A stretch of DNA of 64,000 bases from Pseudomonadota bacterium (lineage in GTDB: Bacteria > Pseudomonadota > Gammaproteobacteria > Steroidobacterales > MnTg04). The DNA lies in assembly GCA_022572885.1 (NCBI GenBank), contig JACZVC010000013.1:1-64000 (forward strand), written 5' to 3'. Position numbers and translations under genes: made by a program. Within the stretch, counting starts at the first letter, position 1. Each line of letters starts with the position of its first letter. Under the pieces are notes generated by a model, which had not been told where the DNA came from, did no database searches, and worked only from the letters and a program-made list of their open reading frames with translations. This document shows, piece by piece, positions 23,012 through 26,629 of this stretch.

Positions 23012-23830
23012 ATGTCCGAACTCCCAAGACATATTCAGCTCCTTGATGCCAGCAGAAATGCGCTCAAACCCTTGTTCAGAATTTTTCTGCGCTCGGGCAT
23101 TTCCTACAAAGATTTTACCGAAGTGGCCAAATCGTTGTTTGTCGAAATCTCGACCGACGAATACGGCCTGAGGGGCAGGAAGACGAATATATCGCGGGTT
23201 GCGATCATGACGGGCCTGACGAGGAAGGAAGTCAAGAAGATTCGCGATGACGGTTGGGAAAAAATGCGGGAAGACAAGATAAGCAACAAACTGAGCCCCG
23301 CATCGGCTGTCTTGCATTTCTGGCATACGGATTCAGATTACCTGGATGACAAAGGGTCGCCCATTCCGCTGGCCTATGACAACGGTAATCCGTCCTTCCT
23401 AACGCTGGCCAAAAAATATGGGGGTGACGTACCATCAGGCGCGCTTTTCAAGGAACTGATACGAGCCGATGCTATCGAGTCGGATGGCGATAGTTTTTAT
23501 CCGATAAAGCGGCATTTCATCGCAGTTGAGGTAGATGACATACTAATTTGGGCGCTGAGAAATTCTGTCAGGCACAAACTAGGTACGCTAGAATATAATA
23601 CTAGACCTGGCCGACTTCCTGAGGCGAGAAGATTTGATCGGCGTGTTTTTTTAACTGTTCCGAAGAGTAAACTAAAGAAAGTAAGTGAAATAGCAAGAGA
23701 GAAACTTCGGAAGTATACCGAAGACTTAGATGATGAATTGTCTCGTTATGAAACTGGGGATAGCCTGAATCCTGACAAGAACTCAAAAATAGTGGGTGCT
23801 GGGTTTTATTATTTTGAGGACGAGGACTAA
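23012..23830 (+). CDS. DUF6502-type protein A
   Basis: This 272-residue soluble protein has no signal peptide or membrane segment. It shares a plan with the protein at 24833-25738: LLDASRNALKPLFRIFLRSG, then FTEVAKSLFVEIS, then a helix-turn-helix-like segment SRVAIMTGLTRKEVKK, then LAKKYGGDVPSGALFKELIR, and a C-terminal motif KIVGAGFYYF. I place both in the DUF6502 family from memory of its pattern; the function is unknown and the HTH-like segment suggests nucleic-acid binding. From about 23520 on, the DNA is clearly richer in A+T than the first half. It is convergent with the GGGD-repeat gene. Confidence 0.8.
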   Translation: MSELPRHIQLLDASRNALKPLFRIFLRSGISYKDFTEVAKSLFVEISTDEYGLRGRKTNISRVAIMTGLTRKEVKKIRDDGWEKMREDKISNKLSPASAVLHFWHTDSDYLDDKGSPIPLAYDNGNPSFLTLAKKYGGDVPSGALFKELIRADAIESDGDSFYPIKRHFIAVEVDDILIWALRNSVRHKLGTLEYNTRPGRLPEARRFDRRVFLTVPKSKLKKVSEIAREKLRKYTEDLDDELSRYETGDSLNPDKNSKIVGAGFYYFEDED

Positions 23831-23913: not shown

Positions 23914-24855
23914 TCAAAGAAAATCACGATCACTGATGTAGTTAGGATAATCGCCGCCACCAATGCTCAGGGGCGAATCGCCGCCACCGATGCTCAAGGG
24001 CGAATCACCGCCACCAATGCTCAAGGGCGAATCACCGCCACCGATGCTCAAGGGCGAATCGCCGCCACCAATGCTCAAGGGCGAATCGCCGCCACCGATG
24101 CTCAAGGGCGAATCGCCGCCACCGATGCTCAAGGGCGAATCACCGCCACCGATGCTCAAGGGCGAATCGCCGCCACCAATGCTCCAGGGCGAATCACCGC
24201 CACCGATGCTCCAGGGCGAATCGCCGCCACCGATGCTCAAGGGCGAATCGCCGCCTCCGATGCTGGCCAAGAACATGCCTGCCTTAAGATTTTGGTACTC
24301 GGAGAAGTTCGCGTATGACTCAAACCCTCGTGTGCTATTCGCCAACATTATTCCATCCTGGTTCGGTTGCACACCGGTGAATACGGCAATTTGGTTGGAA
24401 TCGATTTGGGTTGGCGCAGAAAGAGACGGTGTGACGTCTATAGTCAAATCACTGAGGGATACATGACCATTTTCGTCCAATGATTCAAAGAGCATCCCGG
24501 ATACCATAACTGGCGATGACCCTGGTACATATTGAGATTCCAGTACTTCGATATGTGTAGACGATATTTGGCCAGTTGCCGAAATATACCCAAATACAGC
24601 GGTATACGAACCAGATTCCATATGCTCGACAAAACTCTTCGCATCGGAAAATTCGACGGTCACGAGCTGACCCATTATTTCGAGGGTTCGACCTTTTGCT
24701 CTCGATACCGGGCCAACTAACAACAATGCCTCGGGTTGCGAGCCTTCGAGCCTCTTTTCGTTTTTTGGCATTCCAACTGTCGCACCAGAAAGAAATAAGG
24801 CCATTGCGGTAAATACCGATACTGCAATTGCTTTAGTCATCTTCCTGCTCATCAT
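23914..24855 (-). CDS. Exported protein with twelve C-terminal GGGD nonapeptide repeats
   Basis: The 313-residue protein begins MTKAIAVSVFTAMALFLSGA, a signal peptide. A domain with beta character follows (LLLVGPVSRAKGRTLEIMGQ, TAVFGYISATGQISSTHIEV), faintly like the DUF5666 pattern. After SEYQNLKAGMFLAS comes a run of SIGGGDSPL/SIGGGDSPW units to the C-terminus. The start lies inside the end of the upstream DUF6502-type gene (about 20-base overlap), so the two are probably translationally coupled. A decayed paralogue is at 2875-3207. The nine-residue period recalls RTX repeats, but Asp and Gly are placed differently. I do not recognise a function; calcium or surface binding is a guess. Confidence 0.8.
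   Translation of the reverse strand: MMSRKMTKAIAVSVFTAMALFLSGATVGMPKNEKRLEGSQPEALLLVGPVSRAKGRTLEIMGQLVTVEFSDAKSFVEHMESGSYTAVFGYISATGQISSTHIEVLESQYVPGSSPVMVSGMLFESLDENGHVSLSDLTIDVTPSLSAPTQIDSNQIAVFTGVQPNQDGIMLANSTRGFESYANFSEYQNLKAGMFLASIGGGDSPLSIGGGDSPWSIGGGDSPWSIGGGDSPLSIGGGDSPLSIGGGDSPLSIGGGDSPLSIGGGDSPLSIGGGDSPLSIGGGDSPLSIGGGDSPLSIGGGDYPNYISDRDFL
23954..24268. repeat. Tandem 27-bp repeat, eleven full units plus one partial
   Basis: Consecutive 27-base units (CCGCCACCGATGCTCAAGGG then CGAATCG on the plus strand) run without spacers, each coding SIGGGDSP[LW] on the minus strand. Units differ only at a few positions (A/G third bases, CAA/CCA giving Leu or Trp, and CAG in the first). Near-identity points to recent slippage or recombination; each change of copy number keeps the reading frame. 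Confidence 0.95.
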
Positions 24856-25738
24856 AATAACCCCCGAAAATTTCAGTTAATTCTTGAAAACGGCTTTTGC
24901 TTCTTACAAAGTGATATACGCCCGCACCTGCAATTTTTGCATTCGAAGGAACGAAATCACTGGTTCGGCGTGCTATCTTTTTTCCTAACCAATCATCCAT
25001 TTCTTCAAGGTATTTTTGCCCGGACACCCGGACAAAGTTCTCAAAATCTACGAGTTCGCCCTCTGTAAGTTTTTCATCAGACCAAACGGTTCGTTGAAAT
25101 CGCCCAACACCACCAGCTACTTTTTTCTCCAAATTAATAATTACGGTCTGATGGAAGTCGGCTAAAGCTTTCTGCATCATTTCCAGACCGCCGGGCGCCA
25201 GGCTTGGTGGGATGTATGTCCGCATCAAAACCCGGTACAAACTGTCTTTTGTTTCTTCTACCGCTCCAATTCTCAGTAACTCATCGAGCATCGCTCTCGG
25301 TGGCATGTCGCCGCTGTGGCGCTTTACCAGGTCCGAAAAAGTCAGCCCTTCTTCCGCGTCGAAGGGCAGATCATTCGGCGTGCCATACGGTCCAATAAAG
25401 TCGTCGTCCATGTGCCAGCCAAGTAACACCCTGGCGGCTCGACCCTGCGGTGATCCCTCGTATCCGTACAGGCGGCGATGCTCCTCCTTAATAACTCTGG
25501 CCACTTCCTTGCGGGTCAGGCCGGTAACGATGGCCACCCGCGATTGGGACATTTTTTTCCCGGGCACCTCGAATTCGTTTGCCGCGACCTCCACAAAAGC
25601 GGTCTTGATCAGTTCTATAAACTCTGCGATCGACACGCCGTTTCTGAGCAGCACGCCGATAAACGGGCGAAAAATCTTTTTAAACGCATCCAGCAGGCTA
25701 TTTTTGGGCGTCTGATTCATGCCTGTTGTAGGAAACAT
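24833..25738 (-). CDS. DUF6502-type protein B
   Basis: This 301-residue protein parallels protein A at 23012: LLDAFKKIFRPFIGVLLRNG, FIELIKTAFVEVAANEF, SRVAIVTGLTRKEVARVIKE, LVKRHSGDMPPRAMLDELLR, and KIAGAGVYHFVRSK near the end. It has no signal peptide or membrane segment. I chose the ATG at 25738 because AGAGGG lies nine bases upstream; a TTG at 25780 and an ATG at 25720 are alternatives. Its last codons overlap the start of the GGGD-repeat gene, so the pair forms an operon. A regulatory or nucleic-acid-binding role is inferred only from the HTH-like segment. Confidence 0.8.
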   Translation of the reverse strand: MFPTTGMNQTPKNSLLDAFKKIFRPFIGVLLRNGVSIAEFIELIKTAFVEVAANEFEVPGKKMSQSRVAIVTGLTRKEVARVIKEEHRRLYGYEGSPQGRAARVLLGWHMDDDFIGPYGTPNDLPFDAEEGLTFSDLVKRHSGDMPPRAMLDELLRIGAVEETKDSLYRVLMRTYIPPSLAPGGLEMMQKALADFHQTVIINLEKKVAGGVGRFQRTVWSDEKLTEGELVDFENFVRVSGQKYLEEMDDWLGKKIARRTSDFVPSNAKIAGAGVYHFVRSKSRFQELTEIFGGYYDEQEDD

Positions 25739-25862
25739 CGAGCGGAACCCTCTGAATCCGCAGCATATTACATAACCCAACCTTTGGGGGACTTTAATCC
25801 CAAACTTTTTAGACAGTCAAGCGAAAAACGTCATAACTGGTTAGTTTGCAAGGGAATCTTGC

Positions 25863-26134: not shown

Positions 26135-26163
26135 TAAAAAAAGGCCGGCATCCTTGCCGGCCT
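26135..26163 (-). terminator. Strong intrinsic terminator of the candidate sRNA
   Basis: Minus strand: AGGCCGGCA pairs with TGCCGGCCT (9 bp, four-base loop) and is followed by seven Ts. No protein gene ends just before it; bolA stops more than 200 bases upstream. Confidence 0.9.
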
Positions 26164-26229
26164 GGGTCTCACCTTAGCAGGGGAGATCTGAGGGTTGGAG
26201 CGGCTTGCCCTGAGCGATAGAGAAAGCCA
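26135..26229 (-). ncRNA. Candidate CRP-activated small RNA (about 95 nt)
   Basis: On the minus strand a -10 (TATAAA, 26241-26236) predicts a start near 26229, and a strong terminator ends the RNA at about 26135. A perfect CRP-type operator is centred 41 to 42 bases upstream of that start, the class II activator position. The body has a C/U-rich unstructured segment (AACCCTCAGATCTCCCC) that could pair with Shine-Dalgarno sequences. A 20-codon frame starting MNLAF begins upstream of the predicted start and lacks a ribosome-binding site, so I treat the RNA as non-coding. Confidence 0.55.
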
Positions 26230-26235
26230 GGTTCA

Positions 26236-26241
26236 TTTATA
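26236..26241 (-). promoter_or_regulatory. -10 box of the candidate sRNA
   Basis: Minus-strand TATAAA with no recognisable -35, as expected for an activator-dependent promoter. The CRP-type site sits immediately upstream at the activating distance. Confidence 0.5.
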
Positions 26242-26262
26242 GAAAAATTGCGGGCGCAAAGG

Positions 26263-26278
26263 TGTGAACCACGTCACA
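26263..26278. promoter_or_regulatory. CRP/Vfr-type operator
   Basis: TGTGA-ACCACG-TCACA is an exact match to the CRP half-site consensus with a six-base spacer. Flanking AAAGG and CTTT extend the symmetry. It is centred at 26270.5. Confidence 0.75.
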
Positions 26279-26371: not shown

Positions 26372-26629
26372 CTAGTATCGCGCGTCGATCTGCAAAGCGT
26401 GAATATCAGAGTTCATCAGATCGCCCACGGCATCATAGACAAGCTGGTGTCTTTCGAGGGCGGAGCGTTCTTTGAATTTCGGCGATTCGATCAACACGAA
26501 AAAATGCGAGCGGCCGTCGCGTGCGCCCGTATGGCCAATATGCTTTTCACTGTCATCCCTGATTTCCAGTCTGGTTGGCTCAAGCGTTTCCAGTCTTTCC
26601 CTCAACAACCGGATGCGTTCTTTATTCAT
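26372..26629 (-). CDS. bolA: BolA family protein
   Basis: BolA proteins work with monothiol glutaredoxins in iron-sulphur trafficking and some affect transcription. The 85-residue product has the family core SHFFVLIESPKFKERSALER, then HQLVYDAVGDLMNSDIHALQ. It lacks the conserved cysteine of some subfamilies. It follows yciB and a yciI relic, matching the yciB-yciI-bolA order seen in relatives. Which BolA subtype it is cannot be settled here. Confidence 0.85.
   Translation of the reverse strand: MNKERIRLLRERLETLEPTRLEIRDDSEKHIGHTGARDGRSHFFVLIESPKFKERSALERHQLVYDAVGDLMNSDIHALQIDARY

Follow-up and report, generated by a model that had tools for sequence, protein, structure and literature searches.

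A predicted cAMP-CRP-activated small RNA gene in Woeseiaceae and related families, with a probable neighbouring target in Woeseiaceae

What is made from a locus that has a perfect CRP operator, a terminator and no protein gene between them, and what would the product act on? The question arose from the minus strand of a 64,000-nucleotide contig segment, referred to here as the window. Woeseiaceae and their relatives belong to an order of marine bacteria, most of them uncultured, and are known largely from metagenomes; our literature search found no sRNA described for them. Families are labelled by f-numbers, f7 being Woeseiaceae and f1 the group that includes the window's genus. Comparative analysis strongly supports a regulatory RNA gene of ~95 nt on the minus strand, predicted to be switched on by the cAMP sensor CRP. 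We consider it very likely that the gene founds a new family of trans-acting sRNAs, which would be activated by cAMP-CRP at a class II promoter and, in Woeseiaceae, would block a repeat-protein mRNA through loop 1 and the linker, probably with Hfq.

The operator (TGTGACGTGGTTCACA; 26263-26278, minus strand) is an exact TGTGA-N6-TCACA palindrome, and a -10 element, TATAAA (26236-26241, minus strand), follows 21 nt past it. The operator centre (26270.5) lies 29.5 nt from the first base of the -10 element; this puts the predicted +1 at 26229 and the operator centre at -41.5, which bore out the geometry that the earlier note had proposed from the operator and the minus-strand TATAAA. Class II CRP promoters are not expected to have a -35 hexamer, and this promoter, having none, is absent from the sigma-70 scan listing. 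The sRNA gene (26135-26229, minus strand) was delimited by a covariance-model match (26137-26230), by covariation and by the fold of its own strand. The intrinsic terminator (26163-26142, minus strand) has 9 pairs, 7 of them G-C, and is followed by Ts to 26135. Thus, the 9-bp G+C-rich stem and the T run described earlier both stand, but the 95 nt take in the whole terminator instead of stopping where it begins, and the seven Ts include one that is counted in the stem.

The exact operator pattern occurs once in the 64-kb window, compared with 0.02 expected from dinucleotide shuffles. A perfect operator was present in 4% of 200 Markov-shuffled windows, and the layout of operator, -10 element and terminator in none of the 200; these shuffle counts are not probabilities, and the related genomes discussed below are not independent of one another.

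All four other species of the window's genus carry the block at 83-92% identity, and weaker matches led to Woeseiaceae. A scan of contigs with CTCCAACYCTCRN{1,2}ATCTCC returned 107 stretches, which split cleanly in two: a majority set, from Woeseiaceae and (gamma)proteobacterial genomes, with a 10/10 CRP site 78-81 nt before the motif, and the remaining stretches, without a CRP site. Among 61 distinct sequences from f1 and f7, all ten half-site bases are present in 60 and nine of ten in one. Anchored on the operator, these 61 loci gave 1.9-2.0 bits per column in the half-sites and 0.2-0.6 bits in the N6 spacer; the -35 region held almost no information, and the -10 element was conserved again, with conserved positions 37-38 and 41-43 counted from the operator start. 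Conserved half-sites with a drifting spacer and -35 region mark a class II CRP promoter as being under selection, as judged from this alignment. The operator-to-terminator block, on whose conservation in relatives the earlier note had staked its proposal, is kept in the 61 distinct loci. The boundaries and the conservation of the gene were read directly from the sequences, and its transcription and the binding of CRP are predicted from them.

A covariance search, also suggested earlier, extended the family. A first model built from 13 sequences gave a single strong copy in every f1 genome (5/5) and in most Woeseiaceae genomes, and weaker copies in f5, f16, f9 and f11. Members from these four families carry CGTGA-N6-TCACA (9/10) at identical spacing, and we regard the weaker copies as real since the operator was in place though the model did not use it. 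A second model (R2), built on divergent members, added none from outside the order; of the class-wide matches that were read, most were terminators lacking an operator. A possible second copy in one genome (G037, C20:5959) was rejected, having no model match. Rfam 15, searched at the gathering score and at E values up to 10, gave nothing credible; none of its families, CyaR, McaS and Spot 42 included, matched at the gathering score.

The RNA is predicted to form three helices. In the consensus from 50 distinct sequences, 97.3% of cells are paired and 20 of the 23 pairs have two-sided changes. Double-change cells numbered 148; shuffling left 26, and slid controls never exceeded 19. Fitting the alignment to the covariance model favours structure, but the slid controls still fell far below. 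The mean fold z was -4.1. Hairpin 1 (26201-26229, minus strand) has two-sided changes in all 11 consensus pairs across the 50 distinct rows, and the terminator stem covaries as well. Over 58 members, the mean unpaired fraction was 0.97 for UCGCUC of loop 1 (26212-26217, minus strand), which is kept in f1 and f7, and 0.96 for CUCCAAC(C) of the linker CUCCAACCCUC (26190-26200, minus strand), the probable seed. The value for AUCUCC was only 0.26. The C/U-rich segment ATCTCCCC (26180-26187), put forward earlier as the targeting stretch, lies mostly within hairpin 2 (26167-26186, minus strand) and is mostly base-paired (mean accessibility 0.26), so that role passes to the exposed and conserved CUCCAACCCUC and UCGCUC. 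In f5, f16 and f9, it is the hairpin-2 loop, AAUCCCCC, that is unpaired instead (~0.9).

The window's genome encodes a plausible activator. Its sole protein with a Crp helix-turn-helix (PF00325) passes the NCBIfam equivalog model NF008732 with 315.7 bits against a cut-off of 266. The closest solved structure is Vfr of Pseudomonas, and the recognition helices are near-identical (CSREMAGR versus CSREMVGR in Vfr). The crp gene adjoins speD-like and trpG-like genes, recognised by eye. Class III adenylate cyclases are present in this genome, class I is absent from it, and Hfq is encoded; the sRNA has a U-rich tail. The earlier reading of the layout as that of a cAMP-CRP-activated sRNA gains support from the conservation, the covariation, an insulating upstream terminator in relatives, the lone CRP orthologue and Hfq. 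In the mechanism that we propose, cAMP-bound CRP of the Vfr type would occupy the operator at -41.5 and activate the class II promoter without a -35 box, and the ~95-nt RNA would stop at the intrinsic terminator with loop 1 and the linker displayed unpaired.

The predicted target in f7, f5 and f16 is the orthologue of a secreted tandem-repeat protein gene (23914-24855, minus strand, in the window). In two genomes, a seed search matched the 5'UTR of this gene on the contig that also carries the RNA. When all Woeseiaceae loci were read, GAGGGUUGGAG, the complement of the linker, or a shortened form of it was found to precede the Shine-Dalgarno (SD) sequence. Of the 23 Woeseiaceae 5'UTRs, 19 contain GUUGGAG and 20 contain GAGCGA, which is complementary to loop 1 and lies either at the SD or across AUGAGCGA; the flanks are random. 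Anchoring on a motif inflates that motif's own columns, and it is the counts that matter. The order of the two sites on the mRNA is collinear, that is, the order required by antiparallel pairing. We propose CUCCAACC in the RNA and GGUUGGAG in the target as the probable segments of linker pairing. A genome-wide search of 29 genomes with the two-site pattern GGTTGGAG-N-GAGCGA found one AGGAGCGA-type site, before the repeat gene, in each of 12 genomes; four of these sites are on contigs other than the RNA's and were confirmed by reading, and the other matches were the RNA gene itself and chance matches. GGTTGGAG before an ATG was not enriched genome-wide (40 versus 53 in the reversed control) and gave no recurring orthologues; therefore, the regulon may be a single gene.

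The repeat-gene starts of f16 and f5 carry GTTGGGGATTCT, TGGGGGATTC or TTTGGGGGAT, and these match the RNAs of those families, whose loop differs, over 9-10 nt. Because whole-sequence RNAduplex energies did not separate cognate targets from shuffles, the longest accessible complement was used in their place. Its mean was 9.2 nt for cognate pairs in f7 and 9.4 nt in f5/f16, compared with 5.6-6.0 nt across clades, the f5/f16 swap comprising three loci only. RNA and target in f5/f16 appear to have changed together with the match at the SD retained. The earlier expectation of pairing with SD regions thus holds as complementarity to the SD or start codon in f7, f5 and f16, but in f7 through UCGCUC and CUCCAACCCUC and not through ATCTCCCC; its description of the gene as an orphan was too strong, the cognate target adjoining it in most relatives.

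While the complementarity is a direct reading of the sequences, the repression and the role of Hfq are predictions built on it. Loop 1 and the linker in Woeseiaceae would base-pair with the repeat-protein mRNA in its 5'UTR and at its SD or start codon, probably assisted by Hfq, and this should block its translation at high cAMP. The SD or the start codon is always covered, and therefore repression is the likely outcome. In most relatives, then, the RNA probably pairs with the ribosome-binding site of the neighbouring repeat gene and shuts the protein off at high cAMP. We lean, by a small measure, towards coevolution of the sRNA and its neighbour over an order, in which loop 1 and the linker pair in one branch and the hairpin-2 loop in another, and the target gene, encoding a fast-changing secreted repeat protein, and the covered site, SD or start codon, stay constant.

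The repeat protein has many tandem repeats of 7-9 residues beside a weakly DUF5666-like domain and occupies the same place in five families. We compared the window's gene with the loci L186, L187, L036, L067, L120, L122 and L362-L365. The repeat unit varies by genome (SIGGGDSPL, AIDGTDAR, GISGTGSR, GIDGSSIL, GISGGDVR, GIDGMGVA), the repeats are C-terminal in the window's protein versus N-terminal in Woeseiaceae, and several contigs break off inside the gene. In the window, the gene is flanked by two DUF6502 genes (23012-23827, plus strand; 24833-25780, minus strand), and some relatives have two or three at the locus. In one Woeseiaceae genome (G263, locus L183), the repeat gene is missing, with a DNA ligase-like gene in its place, and the RNA has diverged in its linker and loop (CCCCCAAGCUC) despite a perfect CRP site; loss of the target may free the seed to diverge.

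The target claim does not extend to the window's own genus. In f1, as in f9, the repeat gene overlaps the DUF6502 stop codon, and the repeat-gene starts of both hold no complement to the RNA beyond chance. Loop 1 and the linker, the Woeseiaceae seed, are nevertheless unaltered in the f1 RNA, whose own repeat gene has no complement to them; therefore, this RNA probably has another target, elsewhere than the repeat-gene start. This feeds a reading to which we give somewhat less than even weight, namely that distant mRNAs are the main targets in the window's genus and that repeat-gene pairing is a specialisation of Woeseiaceae and f5/f16. A weak candidate is a 7-nt site at 25746-25752 in the leader of DUF6502, GAGGGUU, which three f1 genomes share, but this site is short and partly structured. 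Exact-seed searches of the f1 genomes gave no usable start region: every match fell within another reading frame, on the strand opposite one, or ahead of a very short one.

The gene order yciB-(yciI)-bolA-isomerase-[RNA]-secreted repeat protein/DUF6502 is common to five families. In the window, the upstream neighbour is a bolA-like gene (26372-26629, minus strand; Pfam PF01722), part of the conserved yciB-(yciI)-bolA-(ppi) block, and downstream lies the nearer DUF6502 gene (PF20112, 146.8 bits, supported by synteny), whose reading frame as listed begins at 25780 with a likely ATG start at 25720. No paper mentioning DUF6502 was found in our literature search. Since the genes on both sides share the RNA's strand in f1, f5, f9 and f16, the RNA might be the 3'UTR or terminator of a bolA/ppi operon, or a leader or attenuator of a DUF6502 operon. 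We judge this improbable: a conserved CRP promoter sits directly at the RNA's 5' end, the repeat-protein and DUF6502 genes of Woeseiaceae face the RNA, and the terminator lies ~400 nt before DUF6502. Furthermore, a terminator-like hairpin is present upstream in 52 of 60 loci, mostly ending ~20 nt before the operator; in Woeseiaceae it usually closes the isomerase gene, and therefore the sRNA is a separate unit.

The terminator loop, GGCARGGAYGCC, is conserved and fits the CsrA pattern, and McaS titrates CsrA through two GGA motifs (PMC4098024). That our RNA acts in this way is slightly less probable still, given that it has one such site only, that near-copies of the stem-loop occur elsewhere in the genome and that the terminator differs in some members. 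Near-copies (~90%) of the stem-loop GGCCGGCAAGGATGCCGGCC were located at G000:C10:1878-1906, G000:C25:937-964 and G004:C32:1677-1705, all three with a CsrA-like GGA in the loop; terminators of this type are common in the lineage. The operator and RNA body are kept with a different, swapped hairpin in L059 and L188 (AAAGGCCACCGAAGTGGCCTTT) and in L182 (GGCCGACTCTTTTGAGTCGGCC).

A short protein-coding gene, suggested by a GTG or ATG just before the linker in some members, is the least credible reading, as the start codon is unconserved (present in only about half of the members and explained by the covarying stem), the loop-2 length of 8-13 nt breaks the frame and base pairs change on both sides, in agreement with the earlier statement that no protein gene fits between operator and terminator.

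McaS, like the RNA proposed here, is activated by CRP. It is an Hfq-binding sRNA that pairs with surface and biofilm mRNAs (csgD) and exposes GGA motifs (PMC4098024); it has no Rfam relation to our RNA, whose one GGA is in the terminator loop. CyaR (RyeE) is likewise a cAMP-CRP-activated sRNA, acting on mRNAs that include one for a cell-surface protein, ompX (PMC4098024), but it has no sequence or covariance relation (Rfam up to E 10) and belongs to another lineage, and here the predicted target is next door. Spot 42 (spf) is under CRP control and, within an operon, targets the ribosome-binding site of galK by pairing (PMC4098024); unlike our candidate, it is repressed by CRP, and there is no homology. 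To judge from the title of a study on Yersinia, CRP is a master regulator of sRNAs in that gammaproteobacterium (PMC4376681), a likeness in CRP control.

The locus thus would provide a new sRNA family whose activator can be named, whose seed is defined and whose target can be tested, together with a covariance model. It would tie cAMP to a secreted repeat protein that is conserved yet evolves fast, and the shift in pairing site from branch to branch would lend itself naturally to the study of joint change in an sRNA and its target.
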